A stretch of DNA of 33,276 nt. Origin: Bacillota bacterium (GTDB lineage Bacteria; Bacillota; Clostridia; Peptostreptococcales; Anaerovoracaceae). The position numbers were made by a program, and so were the translations under genes. A model generated the notes under the pieces. It was not told the DNA's origin and did not search any database. It was given only the letters and a program-made list of their open reading frames with translations. The DNA lies in NCBI GenBank assembly GCA_029219125.1, contig JAQXSU010000052.1, forward strand, positions 1-33,276, given 5' to 3'. Positions 631 to 27,005 of the stretch are shown one piece after another; position 1 is the stretch's first letter; each line of letters begins with the position of its first letter.

Positions 631-1362
631 CTATCGATTCATTTCTTTCTTAAACCGCTCCACAATGGCTTTTTCCGCACGGGAGACGGTCATCTGGGAA
701 ACGCCCAGAGCCTGTGCGATTTCTGACTGTGATTTGTTAAACAGAAACCGTTCTCTGAATACATAACGGTATGTGTCACTCAGCTTTTCCAGAACGGTTG
801 TGATGATCTCGTTAATCTCAATACGCTCATAACCGATTTCCTCGAACCCCACATACTTTTCCAGAAGATTTTCTTCGCCGTCATCCCCCAGGCTGTTTCC
901 GGCACTGTCCAGAGAAAAAGTTCCATAAGCTTTGGCACTTTCCATGGCCTGCATAATCTGCTCATGCGAAAATCCGGTGTGTTCTGAAATTTCTTCCAGC
1001 GTAGGGGCGCGGCCCAGGCTGGTCGTCAGCTGATCCCTGACTTCCTGAACTTTCGAAGAGATTTCCTTCATACGCCTAGGTACTTTCAGGCTCCACTGTT
1101 TGTCTCTGAAATACTTTTTGATTTCTCCGAGAATGGTAGGCGTGGCAAAGCTTTTAAACTCGAATCCTTTCTCAGGGTCGAACCGTTCCACTGCAGAAAC
1201 CAGTGCAAGGGCCCCTACCTGATACAGATCATCGTAATCCACGCCTTTTCCCAGATACTTTCGAATCAGTATGTCCACCATATACAGATTTTCTTCCACC
1301 AGCTGATTTCTTAGCTCAATGGTTGGGTTCTTTGCATATTCTTTAAAAAGATCGGATGTCAT
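631..1362 (-). CDS. SigB/SigF/SigG-family RNA polymerase sigma factor, SigB-like
   Basis: Group 3 sigma-70 factor of 243 residues. Region 2 includes DYDDLYQVGALALVSAVERFDP and the core-binding/-10 helix ending FKSFATPTILGEIKKYFRD. It is followed by WSLKVPRRMKE, which is closer to Bacillus SigB than to sporulation SigF or SigG. Region 4 carries a helix-turn-helix (KSQSEIAQALGVSQMTVSRAE). The start codon overlaps the stop of the upstream anti-sigma gene as ATGA (1359-1362), implying translational coupling and a matched pair. By analogy with RsbW-SigB, the anti-sigma factor should hold this protein inactive until a signal frees it. The target regulon cannot be read from this window. An alternative is a diverged SigF, but the neighbouring genes are not spoIIAA/spoIIAB. 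Confidence 0.85.
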   Translation of the reverse strand: MTSDLFKEYAKNPTIELRNQLVEENLYMVDILIRKYLGKGVDYDDLYQVGALALVSAVERFDPEKGFEFKSFATPTILGEIKKYFRDKQWSLKVPRRMKEISSKVQEVRDQLTTSLGRAPTLEEISEHTGFSHEQIMQAMESAKAYGTFSLDSAGNSLGDDGEENLLEKYVGFEEIGYERIEINEIITTVLEKLSDTYRYVFRERFLFNKSQSEIAQALGVSQMTVSRAEKAIVERFKKEMNR

Positions 1363-1760
1363 TTATATTTCACCATTCTGATTGTTTTTTTACCCTGGGC
1401 ACTGTCAATCAGTTCTATCTCATTCATCAGTGACTGAATTACAAACACACCCAGATTTCCTTCATTCGGGCAATCCAGACATGGTTTCGCCACTTTTTCC
1501 AATACATGACCATCGCTGTTGTCTGTCACATAGATTTCCATTCTGCCTTCCTCTGCCACACATTCCACCGTGTATTCTTCGGCGAAACCGGAAAGACCAT
1601 GACAGGATATATTCTTGCATGCTTCGCTCACAGCGGTTTTTATATCCTCAATTTCTTCGATATCAAATCCCGACATATCGGCGATGGAACCGATTGCCAG
1701 CCTTACCATGGTAAGATAAGCGGGCTTTCCCGGAATCATGAATTTAATTCTGTCTGCCAT
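1359..1760 (-). CDS. RsbW-like anti-sigma factor / serine kinase
   Basis: GHKL-fold (HATPase_c_2) protein of 133 residues. Family members bind their sigma factor and, as kinases, phosphorylate an RsbV-type anti-anti-sigma factor. Visible signatures are the N-box (IEDIKTAVSEACKNISCHG, with the magnesium-binding Asn in EACKN), the ATP-binding loop starting VTDNSDG, and the lid/G2 region NEGNLGVFVIQSLMNEIEL. The N-terminal phrase IPGKPAYLTMVRLAIGSIA is typical of RsbW rather than SpoIIAB. The ATG at 1758-1760 has GGAAG about 9 bases upstream. The gene lies 30 bases after gyrA, overlaps the sigma gene by 4 bases, and has no rsbV gene beside it. The regulatory partner must be encoded elsewhere or be absent. 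Confidence 0.85.
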   Translation of the reverse strand: MADRIKFMIPGKPAYLTMVRLAIGSIADMSGFDIEEIEDIKTAVSEACKNISCHGLSGFAEEYTVECVAEEGRMEIYVTDNSDGHVLEKVAKPCLDCPNEGNLGVFVIQSLMNEIELIDSAQGKKTIRMVKYK

Positions 1761-6495: not shown

Positions 6496-7341
6496 TTACT
6501 GCAGAATTTCCTTGATTTCTTTTACCGATGCAGTGACCAGCTGACGGAATTTCGGTGCTGCCTGATTGGCTGCTTCCTGTACCTCCTCGTGGGTCAGAGG
6601 TGTCTGGCTGATACCTGCTGCCGGATTGCTGACGAAAGAAATACCACAGATTTTCATTCCCATATGATTTGCTGCGATGGCTTCCACCACGGTAGACATG
6701 CCCACTGCATCCGCACCCAGGGTATGAAGCATTTTGATTTCTGCCGGAGATTCAAAGGATGGGCCGGTAGCCTGCGCATAAACACCTTTCTGCAGCTTGA
6801 TGTTATTTTTTTCTGCTGCTTTTTTGATACACTTCTGCAGCGCCGGATCATAAACATGACTCATATCCGGGAAACGAACTCCAATTTCATCGATATTGGC
6901 GCCGATCAGAGGGTTCGGCGCAAACATGGATATCTGATCTGTAATCATCATAAAGTCGCCGGCTTCAAAGGATGGATTGATACCGCCGGAAGCATTGGTC
7001 AGAAACAGGACCTTCGCACCCATCAGCTTCATCAGGCGAATCGGGAGAACTACATCGGTAATGGGATATCCTTCGTAATAGTGGATACGTCCCTTCATGC
7101 ATACTACCGGTGTATCTTCCACATAACCAAAGATAAATTTTCCTGCATGTCCCGGAACTGTGGATACAGGAAACTCTTCTATATCGTGGTAATCCACTTC
7201 ACCCACTACCTGAATATCCTGTGCATAGTCTCCAAGCCCGGATCCCAGAACAATGGCAACTTCAGGACGGAATTTGCTGAAATCAAATTTCTTCTGAATG
7301 CTTTCATAACATCTTAATAATTTTTCATAAACTGGATTCAT
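6496..7341 (-). CDS. punA: purine-nucleoside phosphorylase (class II, trimeric type)
   Basis: Phosphorolyses inosine and guanosine to free base and ribose-1-phosphate in purine salvage. The 281-residue protein has the PNP/MTAP family motifs: VLGSGLGDYA near the N-terminus (phosphate site), STVPGHAGKFIFG, GRIHYYEGY, LTNASGGINPSF (purine site), the stretch around TGPSFESPAEI, GADAVGMSTVVEAIAA, and GISFVSNPAAGIS with the base-contacting Asn. The ATG at 7339-7341 has an AGGAG site and lies inside recF, which overlaps it by 17 bases. It is therefore the last gene of the dnaA operon and is probably translationally coupled to recF. Finding a salvage enzyme at this place is uncommon, but the protein itself looks intact and ordinary. 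Confidence 0.93.
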   Translation of the reverse strand: MNPVYEKLLRCYESIQKKFDFSKFRPEVAIVLGSGLGDYAQDIQVVGEVDYHDIEEFPVSTVPGHAGKFIFGYVEDTPVVCMKGRIHYYEGYPITDVVLPIRLMKLMGAKVLFLTNASGGINPSFEAGDFMMITDQISMFAPNPLIGANIDEIGVRFPDMSHVYDPALQKCIKKAAEKNNIKLQKGVYAQATGPSFESPAEIKMLHTLGADAVGMSTVVEAIAANHMGMKICGISFVSNPAAGISQTPLTHEEVQEAANQAAPKFRQLVTASVKEIKEILQ

Positions 7342-8448: not shown

Positions 8449-9567
8449 TTAATTATTCGTAATTCTTACAGGAAGAATCAGATATTCAAACCGGTTTCCT
8501 GACAGAGGTCTCACCAGGCATGGGCTGATGCTGCTGTTAAACAACATGACGATTTCTTCATCATCAATGACCTTCAGCACATCCATCAGATATTTTGAGT
8601 TAAAGCCGATGACCAAATCATTTCCTTCTTTAGAAATGATAACATCTTCCTTTACATTTCCTTCTTCTGATTTGGATGTGATTTCCATACTATTTTCTTT
8701 CATGTCCAGTTTGATCAGGTTATTTTTTCCTACCTTGGCCAGCAGGGATGCACGCTCGATGCTGTTCAGAAAATCACTTCTGTTTAAAACAATTCTCGTC
8801 TTGCTTTCCTTTGGAAGAATATCTCTGTACTTCACGAATTCTCCCTCCAGAAGGCGAAGCACCACGCGGATATCTTCCATCAGAAAGATAGCTCTTTTAT
8901 CGTTGATGTACAGGCGAACCTGATCGTTTTCTTCCGTTTCTGTTTCACTGATGATCTTACTTATTTCTCCAAAAATTTTGGCCGGGATCACAATGCTTTC
9001 CCGCTCTTTATTTTTCATATTTTCTCTGGTGATAGCCATACGGAATCCATCCAGAGCTACCATATTCATGCTGTCTTCTTCCATTTCCACCAGCACGCCT
9101 GTAATTACGCCGCGGGACTCGTCTATACTGGCAGCAAATGCAGTTTTCTGAATCATTTCCTTCAGCACTTCTTTACTGAAAAGAATCTGATCAGCTGCTT
9201 CTTCCGGCATGTTCAGGCTCGGAAATTCATCTGCCGGCATGCCGATTATATTAAACTCGGAGCTGGCACATCGAATTGTTACTTTTCCATCCTCATATTC
9301 GATGGTAATCATATCGTTTGGAAGCTTTCTGATAATATCTCCGAACAGTTTGGCAAATACCACGGTTTCTCCTGGAATGAAGCTCTCAACATCCAGTGTT
9401 TTTTCAATGCTCAGATCCAGGTCGGATGCAGACATGGTCAGTTTACCGTTTTCGTCCACCCGAAGAAGAATTCCTTTCAGAATTGGAATAGTGGTTCTGG
9501 ATGTAACTGCTTTGGAAACGATATTTAAGGCTTTCGATAGAGCTTGCTGATGACATGAAAATTTCAT
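8449..9567 (-). CDS. dnaN: DNA polymerase III sliding clamp, beta subunit
   Basis: Forms the homodimeric ring that tethers the replicase to DNA. At 372 residues it is the standard three-domain length. It starts MKFSCHQQALSKALNIVSKAV and ends with the hydrophobic-pocket region PCLVRPLSGNRFEYLILPVRI, which is characteristic of the clamp C-terminus. A strong GGAGGAAAAAA site precedes ATG 9565-9567. It lies 154 bases after dnaA with the probable unwinding region of the origin between them, and 2 bases before recF. It is probably cotranscribed from the dnaA promoter; a separate promoter inside the AT-rich spacer is possible. Confidence 0.97.
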   Translation of the reverse strand: MKFSCHQQALSKALNIVSKAVTSRTTIPILKGILLRVDENGKLTMSASDLDLSIEKTLDVESFIPGETVVFAKLFGDIIRKLPNDMITIEYEDGKVTIRCASSEFNIIGMPADEFPSLNMPEEAADQILFSKEVLKEMIQKTAFAASIDESRGVITGVLVEMEEDSMNMVALDGFRMAITRENMKNKERESIVIPAKIFGEISKIISETETEENDQVRLYINDKRAIFLMEDIRVVLRLLEGEFVKYRDILPKESKTRIVLNRSDFLNSIERASLLAKVGKNNLIKLDMKENSMEITSKSEEGNVKEDVIISKEGNDLVIGFNSKYLMDVLKVIDDEEIVMLFNSSISPCLVRPLSGNRFEYLILPVRITNN

Positions 9568-9579
9568 TTTTTTCCTCCG

Positions 9580-9702
9580 GTCTGTTATTCTTTATTTATA
9601 TTCTTTTATAGTAGTAATAGTAGTAGGGACTGTGGAATATGTGGATAACTTCCAGACGCCCTGAAATTCCTGAAAAATTTATTGTTTCAGAATAGTGGAT
9701 AA
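9580..9702 (-). other. oriC unwinding region: DnaA boxes, DnaA-trio and AT-rich element
   Basis: Spacer between dnaA and dnaN. Reading on the minus strand from dnaA there is a box TTATCCACT (9694-9702), a perfect box TTATCCACA (9640-9648) and a weaker abutting box TATTCCACA (9631-9639). Four bases further is a run of six triplets, TAG-TAG-TAA-TAG-TAG-TAG on the plus strand (9609-9626), which read 3'-GAT or AAT from the box side. An AT-only-like tract (about 9580-9608) follows. This order of box, trio and AT-rich DNA matches the basal unwinding system described for Bacillus subtilis oriC, where DnaA assembles on the trio strand and the helix opens. The region has no gene. Confidence 0.8.
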
Positions 9703-9721: not shown

Positions 9722-11113
9722 TCAATCCATAATATCATCTTTCATCTGTTCGATCAGCTGTGCGAAAGAAGGATCAGATTTCATTTCACCTTCAATTTTA
9801 TCACAGGCATACATGACGGTGGTATAGTGTTTTCCTCCAAACATCTGCCCAATCTTCGGAAGAGAATAATCGGTCATCTCACGAATCAGATACATGGCCA
9901 CCTGTCTTGGATATGCGATGCTGTTCTGTTTCTTGGAAGATTCCAGGTCTGACATTTTAATGGAGTAGTGCTTACATATGTATTTCTTTATTTTTTCAGG
10001 CGTGACTTTTATGTCACCATCTGTAAGAATATCTTTCAGTGTTCTTCTGGCAAAGTTTTTATCTGCTTTCTCTCCGAGAAGCTGGGAGAAGGATACGATT
10101 CGTGTGAAAGCTCCTTCCAGTTCCCGGATATTATCTTTAATTTTTTCTGCAATCAGGCAGATCACATCGTAGAGATCGTCATCTACTTCGATATTCATAT
10201 TTTCTGCTTTTTTCGTCAGAATTGCAACCCTTGTTTCATAATCAGGCGGCTGTATATCAGCAATCAGATTCCACTGGAAACGGCTTCTCAGCCGATCTTC
10301 CAGATTTACCAGTTTATTTGGTGCTCGGTCGCTGGAAATGATAATCTGCTTATTGGAATCATAAAGGGTGTTGAACGTGTGGAAAAATTCTTCCTGCGTA
10401 CTGTCTTTTCCCTCCATAAACTGGATATCGTCGATGAGCATTACATCTACTTTTCTGTACTTATTTTTAAATTCACTGATTTTGTTTTCACGCAGCGCAC
10501 GAATCAGCTCATTGGTAAACATTTCTGAAGAAACATAGAGAACATTCAGACCCGGATTATGCTCCAGCAGATAGATTCCTATGGCATGCATCAGATGGGT
10601 TTTTCCAAGACCGGATCCTCCGTAGATAAACAGAGGATTATAAGCTTCTGACGGAGATTCCGCCACAGCCAGTGCTGCCGCATGTGCATACTTATTGCTG
10701 TTTCCCACCACGAAATTATCGAAATTATACCGCGGATTAAATATTTTTTCCATTCCTATTTTACTTACAGGAGTAACTGGCATATCTGGAACCGGCTCCG
10801 GAGCAGGTTTCTCTTCGTCTTCCGGAGTTTCTTTCATAAATTCATCCATGACCTTGATCACAGCCCGGTATCGGTCATGAAGTACAGTTTCCAGACAGTC
10901 TTCAATAACCTGAATATATCTGGTCCTGATAATATTCAGGATGAAATCCACATCGATGCCGCCGGAACTCTTTACACCAAGATATGCTATTTTTAATTCG
11001 CTGTCAATCTGAAAGACTTCCAGAGGCTGCAGCCAGGTATTGAAGCTGACAGCAGTCGTTAATTTCTGAAGTTCTTCTTTCAGTGCTTTTGTCGTTTTTT
11101 CATTTCTGTTCAT
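9722..11113 (-). CDS. dnaA: chromosomal replication initiator protein DnaA
   Basis: AAA+ initiator that binds DnaA boxes, opens oriC and recruits the helicase. With the ATG at 11111-11113 it has 463 residues. Domain I lies at the N-terminus with a short acidic/proline linker (EEKPAPEPVPDMPVTPVSK). The AAA+ module has Walker A GGSGLGKTHLMHAIG and Walker B VDVMLIDDIQF, with LRSRFQWNLIADIQPPDYETR as the sensor region. Domain IV is the DNA-binding part with KHYTTVMYACDKI. I chose the ATG because AAGG lies 8 bases upstream; an in-frame TTG at 11128 would add five residues but has no good site. A DnaA box sits in the predicted promoter, suggesting autoregulation. It heads the leftward operon dnaA-dnaN-recF-punA. 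Confidence 0.98.
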   Translation of the reverse strand: MNRNEKTTKALKEELQKLTTAVSFNTWLQPLEVFQIDSELKIAYLGVKSSGGIDVDFILNIIRTRYIQVIEDCLETVLHDRYRAVIKVMDEFMKETPEDEEKPAPEPVPDMPVTPVSKIGMEKIFNPRYNFDNFVVGNSNKYAHAAALAVAESPSEAYNPLFIYGGSGLGKTHLMHAIGIYLLEHNPGLNVLYVSSEMFTNELIRALRENKISEFKNKYRKVDVMLIDDIQFMEGKDSTQEEFFHTFNTLYDSNKQIIISSDRAPNKLVNLEDRLRSRFQWNLIADIQPPDYETRVAILTKKAENMNIEVDDDLYDVICLIAEKIKDNIRELEGAFTRIVSFSQLLGEKADKNFARRTLKDILTDGDIKVTPEKIKKYICKHYSIKMSDLESSKKQNSIAYPRQVAMYLIREMTDYSLPKIGQMFGGKHYTTVMYACDKIEGEMKSDPSFAQLIEQMKDDIMD

Positions 11114-11158
11114 GTATGAAACCTTCAATTCTTTTTTAAATTACATTTTCCTATTCTT

Positions 11159-11187
11159 ATTGTACAAAAATAGTTATCCACAAGCAA
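11159..11187 (-). promoter_or_regulatory. putative dnaA promoter containing a DnaA box
   Basis: On the minus strand TTGCTT (11182-11187) and TACAAT (11159-11164) are spaced by 17 bases. A perfect DnaA box on the plus strand (11174-11182) fills much of the spacer and touches the -35. DnaA bound there would block RNA polymerase, the known logic of dnaA autoregulation. The -35 match is only 3 of 6, so the promoter is a reasonable but unproven call. Confidence 0.5.
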
Positions 11188-11386
11188 GTATGAATTACAT
11201 GGAAAACAAAATATATTTTTTTATAATTTTATCCACAGGTTGAGGATAAAATTGTGCATAAGTGAATAATGTGTTTGCTTTTGTATTTTTAGCCATTTGA
11301 AACTTTATTTGCTGATTCGGCTGAATCATAAAATGTGGATTTTTTTCTATGTTTTAAACATACATGGAAAATAGTAATGTGAATAA
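11174..11386. other. DnaA-box cluster upstream of dnaA (second half of oriC)
   Basis: Within the gene-free stretch 11114-11505 there are perfect TTATCCACA boxes at 11174-11182 and 11229-11237 (plus strand). Near-matches on the minus strand are TTATCCTCA (11241-11249), TTATGCACA (11253-11261), AAATCCACA (11334-11342) and TTATTCACA (11378-11386), with a weaker one at 11261-11269. DNA between them is very AT-rich. Together with the dnaA-dnaN spacer this gives the bipartite origin layout known from Bacillus. The stretch also holds the dnaA and rpmH promoters and two palindromes (11313-11328 and 11348-11362) that I cannot assign. Confidence 0.85.
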
Positions 11387-18153: not shown

Positions 18154-19050
18154 ATGTTAGAGATGTTGGGAAAGAAAACAGGAAGGTTTTCCGGAGCACT
18201 ACGGAATGTTCCGCCGTCCATTCCCAGGCCGCAGGAAAGGGAAGAGGATCTGACTTCTTTGAAACAGGAGGTCATTGAGATTCCGCTGCAGATGATTTTT
18301 CTCAATCCGGAGCAGCCTCGAAAGATTTTTCGTGAGGAAGAACTTACACAGCTGGCATCTTCCATTCGTGACTATGGCGTTTTGCAGCCCATTCTGGTGA
18401 AGCCGACTGCGGAAGGCAGCTTTATGGTCATTGCCGGAGAACGCCGCTACCGGGCCGCCTGTCAGGCAGGTCTTTTTACCATTCCCGCCATTGTTCGAAG
18501 TATGGAGGAAGAAGAGGCGGCACTGGTTGCTCTGGTGGAAAATGTGCAGAGAGAAAATCTTGGATATCTGGAAGAGGCACGTGCTTATAAGAAGCTGATG
18601 GATGATTTCGGTCTTACCCAGAGTGAGATTGCGCAGAAAGTCGGCAAGCAGCAATCCACCATATCCAACAAAATCCGCATTCTCTCTCTTCCTGATGATA
18701 TTCAGGAGGTACTGACAGAGCACAGGCTTACGGAACGCCATGCCAGGGCTCTTCTCCGCGTACAGGGCGAAAATGACAGACGCAAGGTGATTGCCCGGGT
18801 CATAAAAAACAATCTGAATGTGAAACAGACGGAAAAGCTGGTGGATGACCTGCTGTCGGGCCAGGAGGAACTGCGTCGGAAGAAAAACAAGGTGAACTAC
18901 ATCAGCTATAAAATTTATGTCAATACGATCCGCAAAGCGTTTTCACAGATCAAAGAGATGGAAGAAAATGCCATATTTACACAGGAAGACAAAGGTGACG
19001 TGCTTGAACTTAAAATAACAATTCCTAAGAAAGACCGATGTTTCACGTGA
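18154..19050 (+). CDS. noc: nucleoid occlusion protein Noc (ParB family)
   Basis: CTP-binding ParB-like protein that in Bacillus binds dispersed sites and the membrane to keep the division septum off the nucleoid. The 298-residue protein has the ParB N-terminal domain (LNPEQPRKIF, SIRDYGVLQPILVKP), the CTP motif GERRYRAACQAG, and VENVQRENLGYLEEARAYKKL. A helix-turn-helix follows in GLTQSEIAQKVGKQQSTISNK. The C-terminal dimer region SYKIYVNTIRKAFSQIKEM is Noc-like rather than Spo0J-like. AAGGAGG lies 7 bases before the ATG. The last codons and stop are part of a parS palindrome. A second true ParB is encoded downstream, supporting Noc for this copy. Confidence 0.88.
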   Translation: MLEMLGKKTGRFSGALRNVPPSIPRPQEREEDLTSLKQEVIEIPLQMIFLNPEQPRKIFREEELTQLASSIRDYGVLQPILVKPTAEGSFMVIAGERRYRAACQAGLFTIPAIVRSMEEEEAALVALVENVQRENLGYLEEARAYKKLMDDFGLTQSEIAQKVGKQQSTISNKIRILSLPDDIQEVLTEHRLTERHARALLRVQGENDRRKVIARVIKNNLNVKQTEKLVDDLLSGQEELRRKKNKVNYISYKIYVNTIRKAFSQIKEMEENAIFTQEDKGDVLELKITIPKKDRCFT

Positions 19051-19068
19051 AACATCGGTCTTTTTTTC
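19030..19068 (+). terminator. intrinsic terminator of noc, built on the parS palindrome
   Basis: A perfect 34-base palindrome centred between 19046 and 19047 (17 bp per arm) is followed by a run of T ending at 19067. It starts inside the last noc codons. The stem is long and the T-run strong, so the RNA should terminate well, although a perfect palindrome must leave a few central bases unpaired as a loop. Confidence 0.85.
19039..19054. other. parS centromere site
   Basis: The 16 bases TGTTTCACGTGAAACA are an exact match to the conserved bacterial parS sequence bound by ParB/Spo0J. The site lies 85-100 bases upstream of the parA start and about 8-9 kb from the origin. It encodes the last residues of Noc and its TGA stop. 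ParB loading and spreading should start here. Confidence 0.97.
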
Positions 19069-19924: not shown

Positions 19925-20827
19925 ATGGCAGCAGCGAAAAAAGGAGGACTGGGCAGAGGCCTGGACGCACTGTTTGCAGATGTACCGGTTTCTGCGCCGG
20001 AAGAAGAGACAAAGGAAGAAGGAAAAAGTGAAGAAGTGGCGGCTGAAGACAGAGTGAATTATATCGATATTCACGAAATCATGCCCAATGTAAATCAGCC
20101 AAGAAAGACATTTCCTGAAGAAAAAATTGAAGAACTGGCGGATTCAATCCGTGAACACGGAATCATACAGCCTATAGTAGTGAGAAAAAAACAGAAGGGA
20201 TATGAAATCGTTGCCGGAGAAAGAAGATGGCGTGCTGCCATGAAAGCCGGATTGTCTGAAGTGCCATGTCTTCTTCGCGAACTGAGTGACGAACAGAATA
20301 TGCTCATCGCCATCATTGAAAATATGCAGCGTGAGGATCTGAATCCGATTGAAGAAGCAGAAGGGCTGCACCAGATGATCAGTACCTTCGGACTGACACA
20401 GGAACAGGTATCGAAAAGTGTGGGAAAGAGTCGGCCATATATTACAAATTCCCTTCGTCTTTTGAAACTCCCCGAATATATTCGTGTAAAGGTTTCTGAA
20501 GGAGAGCTGACCGCAGGTCACGGAAGGACTCTCATAACTGTGGAAGATGTAAATCTGCAGCGACAGCTTTGTGATAAGATCGTAGAAGAAGGACTTTCTG
20601 TTCGACAGACAGAGAAACTGGTTGCAGAACTGGGAAAAGGACCGAAAAAAAAACCGGCACAGAAACAGAAAAATCCAGACACACTGCGCGTGGAAGAAGA
20701 ATTGAAAACCATTCTGGGAACGAGAGTCAACATAGTGGAAAAAGGAAAAAAAGGAAAGATAGAGATTGAATGCTTTAGCCGCGATGAAATGAATCGTCTC
20801 ATAGAACTATTGAAAAAACTGGGTTAG
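19925..20827 (+). CDS. parB: chromosome partitioning protein ParB/Spo0J
   Basis: CTP-dependent DNA clamp that loads at parS and spreads. The 300-residue protein begins with the ParB-type peptide KKGGLGRGLDALF, which stimulates ParA, and an acidic linker. Next come the N-terminal domain (IMPNVNQPRKTFPEEKIEELADSIREHG), the CTP motif GERRWRAAMKAG and ENMQREDLNPIEEAEG. The helix-turn-helix is GLTQEQVSKSVGKSRPYITNSLRLL, and the C-terminal dimer domain (LKTILGTRVNIVEKGKKGKIEIE) ends the protein. The site GGAGGAAG is in the parA tail. It is cotranscribed with parA and the DUF1294 gene. Confidence 0.97.
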   Translation: MAAAKKGGLGRGLDALFADVPVSAPEEETKEEGKSEEVAAEDRVNYIDIHEIMPNVNQPRKTFPEEKIEELADSIREHGIIQPIVVRKKQKGYEIVAGERRWRAAMKAGLSEVPCLLRELSDEQNMLIAIIENMQREDLNPIEEAEGLHQMISTFGLTQEQVSKSVGKSRPYITNSLRLLKLPEYIRVKVSEGELTAGHGRTLITVEDVNLQRQLCDKIVEEGLSVRQTEKLVAELGKGPKKKPAQKQKNPDTLRVEEELKTILGTRVNIVEKGKKGKIEIECFSRDEMNRLIELLKKLG

Positions 20828-20834
20828 AGGGAGA

Positions 20835-20850
20835 TGTTTCACATGAAACC
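20835..20850. other. degenerate parS-like site at the DUF1294 start
   Basis: TGTTTCACATGAAACC matches the 16-bp parS at 14 positions. The mismatches are one of the two central bases (A for G) and the last base. It overlaps the start codon of the gene after parB. The central change probably weakens binding, so it may be a secondary or decayed site. Confidence 0.4.
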
Positions 20851-24161: not shown

Positions 24162-25481
24162 ATGGTAGAAAGGATTCCGCCGCATAATGAGGAAGCAGAG
24201 CGGTGCGCACTGGGTGCGTCCATGCTCAGCAAGGATGCACTGTATGATGTAATCGAAGAAGTGACCGCAGACGATTTCTACAATGAAAATCACCGGGAGA
24301 TATTCAAGGCCATCATGGATCTGTACAGGGAAAACGCACCGGTGGATATGCTGACAGTGTGTGAGACCCTGAAAAAAAAGAAGGCACTGGATATTGTGGG
24401 AGGAAGAGCATATATCGCCACTCTCACGACGGAGGTGCCATCCACAGTCAACGCTGGAGAATATGCGAAAATTGTCTCGGAAAAAGCAGCCCTCAGACAG
24501 CTGATTAATACAGCAGAAGAAATTATGAATAAGGGCTACGAAGGAAAGGATGATGCAAAGGAGGTCCTTAACTTCGCAGAGGCCGGTATATTTCAGATTG
24601 GACAGAAGCGCCAGAAAAGCGATTACACCCAGATTCAGGACATTCTGCTGAAAAATGTGGAGATTATTGATGCGGCATCGAAGAATCAGGGAAAAGTCGT
24701 GGGAATTCCCACCGGCTTTAAGGATCTGGATGAACTGACATCAGGACTTCACCGTTCTGATCTGATCATCCTGGCAGCACGGCCGGCCATGGGAAAAACC
24801 GCGTTTGCACTGAACATTGCACAGCAGACGGCTGTTAAGGCAGGCTCTTCTGTGCTGATCTTCAGTCTGGAAATGTCCAAGGAGCAGCTGGGACAGCGGC
24901 TTCTTGCCATTCAGGCCAGAGTAGAGATGCAGAAGCTGAAGACAGGCACCCTGGACCGCAAGGATTGGGATCGGCTGAATATGGCTCTGGACGAGCTGCA
25001 CAATTCAAAAATATTTATTGATGATACGCCGGGCATTTCCATCATGGAAATGCGTAATAAATGCCGCCGGCTGAAGGCGGAGCATGGACTGGACCTGGTG
25101 GTGATCGACTATCTGCAGCTGATGCAGTTTGACGGCAGGGCAGACAGCCGCCAGCAGGAAATATCTGCAATTTCCAGACATCTGAAACTGCTGGCCAGAG
25201 AAATGGACTGTCCGGTCATCGTACTGTCCCAGCTGTCCCGTGCGCCGGAACTCCGGCAGGATCACCGGCCGATTTTATCAGATCTGAGAGAATCCGGTTC
25301 CATTGAACAGGATGCAGACATTGTAATTTTCCTGTACCGGGATGACTACTATAATCCGGATAACAGTGAGAAACACGGTATCTGCGAAGTCAATGTGGCC
25401 AAGCACAGAAGCGGTCCTACGGATAAAGTAGAACTGACATGGGTGGAACGATACACCAAATTCAGCGATAAAGCATTGTAA
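24162..25481 (+). CDS. dnaB: replicative DNA helicase DnaB
   Basis: Hexameric 5'-3' helicase at the replication fork (called DnaC in Bacillus). The 439-residue protein has the N-terminal helical domain (PPHNEEAERCALGASMLSKDA), the linker, and a RecA-like motor. Walker A is ARPAMGKTAFALNIA, and Walker B is LDLVVIDYLQLM. The conserved segments SRQQEISAISRHLKLLARE and LSDLRESGSIEQDADIV are intact, as is the C-terminal EVNVAKHRSGPTDKVEL. GGAG lies upstream of the ATG. It lies upstream of the dnaD-like gene, whose product carries a putative helicase-contacting domain. Confidence 0.97.
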   Translation: MVERIPPHNEEAERCALGASMLSKDALYDVIEEVTADDFYNENHREIFKAIMDLYRENAPVDMLTVCETLKKKKALDIVGGRAYIATLTTEVPSTVNAGEYAKIVSEKAALRQLINTAEEIMNKGYEGKDDAKEVLNFAEAGIFQIGQKRQKSDYTQIQDILLKNVEIIDAASKNQGKVVGIPTGFKDLDELTSGLHRSDLIILAARPAMGKTAFALNIAQQTAVKAGSSVLIFSLEMSKEQLGQRLLAIQARVEMQKLKTGTLDRKDWDRLNMALDELHNSKIFIDDTPGISIMEMRNKCRRLKAEHGLDLVVIDYLQLMQFDGRADSRQQEISAISRHLKLLAREMDCPVIVLSQLSRAPELRQDHRPILSDLRESGSIEQDADIVIFLYRDDYYNPDNSEKHGICEVNVAKHRSGPTDKVELTWVERYTKFSDKAL

Positions 25482-25721: not shown

Positions 25722-27005
25722 ATGAATTATATCAAAGGAAAGATAAAAGATTTTTATCTTCTGACAAGTGAAATAGAAAATATCTTTTTAAATGAATATA
25801 TGCCGGGTGCGCCGGGAGATCATGTGAAGGTCTACCTGTTTGGATACATGTATGCACAGCAGGGAGAAGAAATGAGCCATGAGACGATGGCGCGCCAGCT
25901 TCGTCTGTCATTGGATCAGGTGAATCAGGCATGGACCTACTGGGCGGATATGGGCGTTGTAAAAAAACATCCGAGGAAGGATGCGGACAGCGGAAGCAGT
26001 CAGCTGAATTACGATGTGGAATTTCTCCATCTGCGGGAGCAGATGTACAGAAGTCCCCTGACTGCAGCGCAGGAGGAAACAGAATCCTATGGAGAGGAAC
26101 CCGACGGTCTGCTGCAGAATGAGAATGTGAAGACACTCCTTGGAGATATTCAGCGGATTACAGGGCGAACTCTGAGCACAGGGGAAGTTCAGGAAATTCA
26201 CAGCTGGCTCACTGATCTTGGAGCAAAGCCGGAAGTCGTCGAGCAGGCTTACAGTTACTGTGTGAACCGTGGAAAAAGCAATGTAAAATACATATCCAGA
26301 GTGGTGATGCAGTGGACGGAGCAGGGATTTCAGACAAAAGAAGAGGTACAGAAGTATCTGGATGAACTGGATCAGCGATTTGGAATGCAGAAGAGAATTC
26401 TCCAGTCGCTGGGCATGAATCGAAGCGCAACAGAAGCAGAGAAGGAATTGATAAACCGCTGGTTCGACGAAATGCATTTCAGCCTGGAACGCATACTGGA
26501 AGCCTGCGGACGGACCGTATCCATTTCCAATCCAAATCTTCGCTATGTAAATAAAATACTGGAAAACTGGTATCAGGAAGCGAAGAAGGATGGAAGAGAC
26601 GTAAATAAGAAAGTAACAGTCACTCAGACTGTACTCAATAGATACTATGAATTCCTTCGGAAGAAGGAAGAAAAGGAAGCGCAGGAACGGAAGGAACAGA
26701 TTTATGAAAAGCTGCCTCGCATTGAGCAGATTGACAGGATGCTTTCTGAACTGGGCAGCAACATTTCCCGCAGTCTTCTTTCCGGAGGTAAACGAAGCGA
26801 TATCGAAGAAATACGGTGTCAGATGAAAGAACTGGAAAGTGAACGGGCTGTTCTTCTTACAGAAAACAATTTCCCGATTGACTATACAGACTTGAAGTAT
26901 TCTTGCGAAATCTGCAGGGATACCGGTATGACAGAAGACGGACGCCGGTGCGCCTGCACGGGAAAGAGAACAGAAGAGGCAGAATTATGGCAAAAATCAA
27001 ACTGA
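25722..27005 (+). CDS. DnaD-like primosome protein fused to a DnaC/DnaI-type N-terminal zinc domain
   Basis: A 427-residue protein. Residues 1-100 look like a winged-helix domain. Two DnaB_2/DnaD-type repeats follow (about 132-205 and 222-287), each ending in a YxxxIxxxW-type motif (YISRVVMQW and YVNKILENW). From about 300 to the end the sequence resembles the N-terminal part of the clostridial DnaC/DnaI helicase loader: EKLPRIEQIDRMLSELG, LLTENNFPIDYTDLKYSC, then CEIC (395/398) and CAC (410/412) as zinc ligands. It ends ELWQKSN, where loaders continue into the AAA+ ATPase, which is missing. GGAGG precedes the ATG. It probably acts in helicase loading; the fusion reading rests on pattern memory, not a search. 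Confidence 0.75.
   Translation: MNYIKGKIKDFYLLTSEIENIFLNEYMPGAPGDHVKVYLFGYMYAQQGEEMSHETMARQLRLSLDQVNQAWTYWADMGVVKKHPRKDADSGSSQLNYDVEFLHLREQMYRSPLTAAQEETESYGEEPDGLLQNENVKTLLGDIQRITGRTLSTGEVQEIHSWLTDLGAKPEVVEQAYSYCVNRGKSNVKYISRVVMQWTEQGFQTKEEVQKYLDELDQRFGMQKRILQSLGMNRSATEAEKELINRWFDEMHFSLERILEACGRTVSISNPNLRYVNKILENWYQEAKKDGRDVNKKVTVTQTVLNRYYEFLRKKEEKEAQERKEQIYEKLPRIEQIDRMLSELGSNISRSLLSGGKRSDIEEIRCQMKELESERAVLLTENNFPIDYTDLKYSCEICRDTGMTEDGRRCACTGKRTEEAELWQKSN

Follow-up and report, generated by a model that had tools for sequence, protein, structure and literature searches.

A predicted basal unwinding system between dnaA and dnaN in a draft Clostridia genome, and a DnaD-loader fusion in its family

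Results and discussion

The dnaA-dnaN spacer and the bipartite origin

Our analysis indicates that the interval flagged in the window (the window being the whole stretch of 33,276 nucleotides analysed here; the flagged interval, positions 9580 to 9702) is very probably a basal unwinding system (BUS), corresponding to oriC2 in a bipartite chromosomal origin. The element is already known in kind and the window adds a fresh example, in which the predicted opening site, its strand and the direction of DnaA loading are narrowed to a few bases in a draft Clostridia genome. The real novelty lies outside the flagged interval, in a DnaD-type protein fused to part of a helicase loader, with no full AAA+ loader found in the tested genomes of its family and sister family; the helicase-loading partner of this origin seems to have lost the ATPase on which the textbook Firmicutes loaders rely.

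Both genes that border the spacer are on the minus strand. The dnaA gene occupies 9722..11113 (ATG at 11113, with the frame open back to a TTG at 11128; PF00308 and PF08299), and dnaN, for the beta clamp of DNA polymerase III, occupies 8449..9567 (PF00712/PF02767/PF02768), leaving a spacer of 154 bases. Read in the sense of dnaA, the spacer contains an additional DnaA box with one mismatch, TTATCCACT (9694..9702, minus strand), the perfect box TTATCCACA (9640..9648, minus strand) abutting the proximal box TATTCCACA (9631..9639, minus strand), which has two mismatches to the consensus, the G+C-rich 4-nt spacer GTCC (9627..9630, minus strand), six DnaA-trios (9609..9626, plus strand), TAAAAGAATATAAATAAAGAATAAC, and the dnaN ribosome-binding site CGGAGG (9574..9579, minus strand), which was read from the sequence. 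The perfect and the proximal boxes are equivalent to B. subtilis boxes 6 and 7, respectively. Read 3' to 5', the trios are GAT GAT GAT AAT GAT GAT (five GAT and one AAT, all 3'-(G/A)AT-5') and run away from the boxes. The plus strand, 5'-TAGTAGTAATAGTAGTAG-3' at these positions, is the predicted single strand bound by DnaA, and its minus-strand complement, CTACTACTATTACTACTA (CTA CTA CTA TTA CTA CTA), shows the motif recognised by DnaD, 5'-TnnT-3' (PMC10201434), five times opposite the trios. The tract at 9580..9608, distal to the trios and overlapping the dnaN leader, is 83% A+T and is likely the DNA unwinding element.

A BUS consists of tandem DnaA boxes, a short spacer, trios that share one register and have A in the middle, and an A+T tract, and it has been searched for as a box with at most two mismatches, a spacer of at most 16 bp and at least three NAN trios, tandem boxes being common (PMC8287927). 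The window has the tandem pair, a spacer within that limit and of the typical kind (about 4 bp and G+C-rich), six in-register 3'-NAN-5' trios, five of them the preferred 3'-GAT-5', and the A+T region beyond them. The first-pass annotation had placed six triplets, all of the 3'-(G/A)AT form, in the spacer downstream of dnaA, with an A+T-rich tract past them, and its register, coordinates and location proved exact. It also put a DnaA box 4 bases from the trios; the distance is right, but that box is the degenerate one, and the perfect box lies just beyond it. The predicted unwinding site that it proposed gains support from the BUS features, which are found in the correct order, spacing and strand, and from the sharing of the trio string with C. 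difficile.

The whole window has a single run of six exact YTA triplets, and shuffles of the window gave a mean of 0.02 six-YTA matches even with up to two mismatches allowed. The combination of a box, 4 nt and six trios never appeared when the spacer was shuffled 20,000 times with its dinucleotides preserved (0/20,000) and, given this result and the uniqueness in the window, a chance origin of the array is excluded. These results bear on the reading that the triplets are a chance A+T-rich repeat or a part of the dnaN promoter or leader and that the origin lies elsewhere. The array does lie less than 60 bp from the dnaN start codon, and promoter-like matches over the surrounding 4 kb numbered 16 against 10.6 in shuffled sequences, which is little above the shuffles. 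However, 108 Clostridia genera share the register and strand of the array, its 4-nt spacer and its length of six units, and C. difficile opens at the same string (PMC7561715); we regard this reading as extremely improbable. Spo0A-like boxes were at the shuffle level in number, and Rfam and tRNA scans gave no match.

A second, oriC1-like cluster of DnaA boxes, also pointed out in the first-pass annotation, lies upstream of dnaA, between it and rpmH (11174..11386), and consists of two perfect boxes (11174-11182 and 11229-11237, plus strand) and three one-mismatch boxes (11241-11249, 11253-11261 and 11378-11386, minus strand). The GC skew, which was computed within the window because the source genome is available as an incomplete draft in 324 contigs, switches at about 11 kb, beside dnaA, where negative values give way to positive ones. 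The boxes on either side of dnaA and the skew switch fit the bipartite oriC of Firmicutes. The same skew switch, together with the most A+T-rich 40-bp stretch of the window (90%, at about 11190, amid the DnaA boxes), would also suit unwinding at the upstream cluster, with the dnaA-dnaN element merely titrating DnaA or regulating dnaN. We consider this very unlikely: the sole six-trio array of the window sits in the dnaA-dnaN spacer, and C. difficile needs both regions, yet opens in oriC2 (PMC7561715).

Several neighbouring features of the window were recorded in passing. A Noc-like parB gene (18154-19050) has a perfect parS, TGTTTCACGTGAAACA (19039-19054, plus strand), at its 3' end, and a parS copy with two mismatches (20835-20850, plus strand) lies just past a second parB (19925-20827). 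These two ParB-family genes flank soj/parA and both score under the NCBI Noc cut-off; no Noc binding sites were found in the window. In the otherwise usual replication operon, a purine nucleoside phosphorylase gene (6496-7341, minus strand) lies between recF and gyrB, and no gene was found in the dnaN-recF interval. Directly after gyrA there are genes for an RsbW/SpoIIAB-like anti-sigma kinase and a SigB/SigF/SigG-type sigma factor (631-1760, minus strand).

Conservation of the trios in Clostridia

We surveyed the dnaA-dnaN spacers of genomes that were picked by their DnaA and not by their trios. A locator of boxes alone was abandoned, because the proximal box unit is either 8 or 9 nt long, and the boxes plus trios 1-2 were used instead; trios 1-2 are thus a part of the locator. 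The order-wide pattern CACANNNN(YTA)5 was excluded from the statistics, since it presupposes the trios. The survey yielded 121 arrays from 108 genera and 39 families, and a second set of 43 arrays was collected from other genomes with a pattern blind to trios 4-6.

The arrangement of two boxes, 4 nt and six trios is kept between dnaA and dnaN across the sampled Clostridia, and in 24 of the 121 arrays, from 9 families, the 18-base trio string is identical to the letter. The 4-nt spacer has a mean G+C of 78%. The array ends sharply after six units: the frequency of YTA is about 75% at trio 6 and 9% at position 7. Trios 1-3 are almost fixed, trio 3 being (G/A)AT in 116 of 121 arrays. At trio 4 there are 68 AAT, 21 GAT and 32 others, and departures from (G/A)AT number 16/121 at trio 5 and 30/121 at trio 6. 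When arrays with a sole departure at one of two trios were compared in pairs, trio 4 exceeded both trio 3 (30 versus 3, p = 1.4e-6) and trio 5 (29 versus 13, p = 0.02), and it did not differ from trio 6 in the paired test. The minimum numbers of changes on the DnaA tree were 24 for trio 4, 5 for trio 3, 11 for trio 5 and 26 for trio 6. Trios 1-3 are therefore held far more tightly than trio 4, a strong result that agrees with the published importance of the proximal trios; for a local dip at trio 4 compared with trio 5, the counts are suggestive but short of proof. In the set of 43 arrays, departures at trios 4 and 5 numbered 8 and 2 (p = 0.11 for this set alone), and the ratio of AAT to GAT at trio 4 was 28:7; pooling the 121 and 43 arrays gave p = 0.003 for trio 4 versus trio 5, with a statistic that ignores relatedness. 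Two arrays from the genus of the window (L003 and L004) have TAA at trio 4, where the central A is gone, with trios 1-3 and 5-6 intact. The survey thus provides a testable position-by-position picture, with a sharp end after six trios and a loose trio 4. Separately, in three members of the family of the window (L158, L159 and L162) the trio array looks largely degraded next to recognisable boxes.

Unequal roles of the trios would be a refinement of the BUS explanation and are compatible with it: trios 1-3 would start the opening, trio 4 would be a tolerated weak link, and trios 5-6 would be kept partly for a DnaD element on the opposite strand. The paired counts, the tree changes and the 43 further arrays point this way, B. 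subtilis trio 4 (CTT) is likewise odd, and in B. subtilis a changed distal TnnT (trios 5-6) weakens the recruitment of DnaD but does not impair unwinding by DnaA (PMC10201434). However, the contrast between trios 4 and 5 is modest by both the held-out and the pooled values, and the distal TnnT is kept in 107 of 121 arrays against 108 and 105 for its neighbours; a DnaD recognition element (DRE) as the sole cause of the conservation of trios 5-6 was rejected, the distal TnnT being no better kept than those neighbours. Moreover, AAT at trio 4 could be plain inheritance, because T/C exchange is about as frequent at trios 1, 2 and 5. We put this refinement forward tentatively, and lean somewhat against it.

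DnaA and the proposed opening of the origin

The DnaA encoded in the window can be aligned over its full length with the DnaA of the B. subtilis BUS structure, 8btg (E 1.2e-124). Of the trio-capturing residues known from cryo-EM of the B. subtilis BUS, E183, N187, I190, N196, K222 and E228 (B. subtilis numbering) are identical, and the substitutions I193L, R202K and E223D are conservative, so that the trio-capturing residues expected with a BUS are conserved in this protein. R202 makes a guanine contact in B. subtilis; K at this position is also found in 15 of the 121 sampled relatives, and no association was found in the 121-array survey between residue 202 (R or K) and the number of G-first trios. 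This replacement and the weakness of the box nearest the trios are counterpoints to the BUS reading. The sequence elements, their spacing, uniqueness and conservation, and the reading residues of DnaA are established for the window.

In B. subtilis, box-bound DnaA nucleates an ATP oligomer onto the trio strand, two bases are captured per trio, and the strands separate (PMC6669920, PMC10721633). For the window, we infer from B. subtilis and C. difficile that DnaA binds and unwinds the DNA, that a loop forms with the upstream box cluster and that DnaD is recruited. DnaA would use its domain IV to dock on the boxes at 9640-9648 and 9631-9639, which share one orientation, and the ATP-DnaA oligomer would extend through domain III along the plus strand from 9626 to 9609, the 3'-(G/A)A-5' dinucleotide of each trio being captured by one protomer pair. 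The minus strand would be peeled off, the A+T tract upstream of dnaN (9580-9608) would then open, and the DnaD-type protein could recognise the freed minus strand, with helicase loading to follow.

Helicase loading

The window encodes a replicative helicase of the DnaB family that would act at this origin (24162..25481, plus strand; PF03796 and PF00772) and a DnaD-type protein fused to a DnaI-like loader N-terminal domain (25722..27005, plus strand; PF07261, TIGR01446 and NF005304). The fusion protein has two DnaB_2 stretches (PF07261) followed by a loader-type, Zn- and helicase-binding N-terminal domain; its C-terminal approximately 120 residues match positions 7-121 only of the 330 of NF005304 (E 3.5e-24), with the C-x2-C...C-x-C Zn motif present, and the protein ends after this motif. 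With the DnaI/DnaC AAA+ loader family (NF005304/PRK06835, PF01695) it thus has in common the N-terminal domain and the Zn cysteines, whereas the AAA+ domain and Walker A of a DnaI/DnaC loader are absent from the fusion (25722-27005). An AlphaFold model gave a mean pLDDT of 79.5 (about 87-93 in the loader-type domain) and a pTM of 0.37, at which the domain arrangement is not reliable. A structure search of the PDB with this model recovered DnaD folds and no loader fold, and no DnaI structure came up when the PDB was searched by sequence with the loader-type domain at the C-terminus. Since the structure search gave no loader fold, the loader-type domain is assigned by its sequence family.

The same fusion arrangement was found in the genomes of the window's family (f1) in which the whole gene is readable and in those of a sister family (f9) (relatives L281-L304); in the remaining families of the order, DnaD and the loader are separate genes. 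At the curated cut-off of NF005304, none of the 23 f1 and f9 genomes tested, most of them at least 98% complete, gave a full-length loader, and all 12 genomes tested outside these families did. None of 16 genomes, among them that of the window (G000), gave a match to DciA (PF05258), with the positive controls detected. In the window genome, the PF01695 matches of note were DnaA and a PhoH-like open reading frame only; the latter, on contig C318, had come up as a possible AAA+ match and was judged by eye to be PhoH-like and not a loader. Some f1 genomes have an extra AAA+ protein, of which only the ATPase part was matched, below the cut-off. It looks accessory, because its presence differs within one genus: it was found in G015 and was not among the matches listed for the single-contig G098.

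When the families were scored by type, the fused versus separate state required one change on the DnaA tree. Because of this single change and because no loaders of the DnaI/DnaC or DciA type were found, we moderately favour the view that in f1 and f9 the opening is conventional and the helicase is delivered without an AAA+ loader: the loader would have lost its ATPase, its helicase-binding domain would have been fused to DnaD, and the helicase would be connected with DnaA and the opened DNA by a single protein that is not an ATPase. In B. subtilis DnaI, the N-terminal domain is the Zn-containing helicase-binding part and the AAA+ domain is gripped by the DnaB tail (PMC13326638); with a DnaD/DnaB-type protein covalently joined to the loader N-terminal domain, that grip would become unnecessary. 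Walker mutants of the C. difficile loader still load or activate the helicase (PMC5204125). If the loss of the ATPase is true, these families are a natural test of whether ATP hydrolysis by the loader is needed at all. We found no description of a fusion of DnaD with the loader N-terminal domain in the open-access literature. According to Brezellec et al., an order, class or phylum that has dna[CI] genes has them in all of its species, named exceptions aside; f1 and f9 would contradict this generalisation.

Comparison with known origins

Among the closest known systems is Clostridioides difficile oriC1/oriC2, which has the same 18-base trio string between dnaA and dnaN, within the oriC2 sequence CACCTACTACTATTACTACTATGA, and a second box cluster upstream of dnaA; in P1-nuclease assays with purified DnaA, opening occurred in oriC2 when oriC1 and oriC2 were both present (PMC7561715). 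A scan of named genomes found the extended string of the window in five Clostridium species or strains. C. difficile has a full-length AAA+ loader (CD3654) beside the DnaD-like CD3653, whereas the window's family is without a separate loader.

The B. subtilis incC BUS (DnaA-boxes 6/7 and trios; CTACTATTACTTCTACTA, PMC10201434) shares with the window the tandem co-oriented boxes, the short G+C spacer, the six trios, the A+T tract, the location between dnaA and dnaN and the reading residues of DnaA. The trio order is CTA CTA CTA TTA CTA CTA in the window and CTA CTA TTA CTT CTA CTA in B. subtilis, where every trio except trio 4 is GAT or AAT. The B. subtilis DRE has five TnnT steps opposite the trios, as has the window, which thus carries, by sequence, both parts of such an element (at least two TnnT and a DnaD homologue), the homologue here being the fusion protein. 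The window differs from B. subtilis in the K for R202 of its DnaA and in the helicase-loader machinery that acts downstream.
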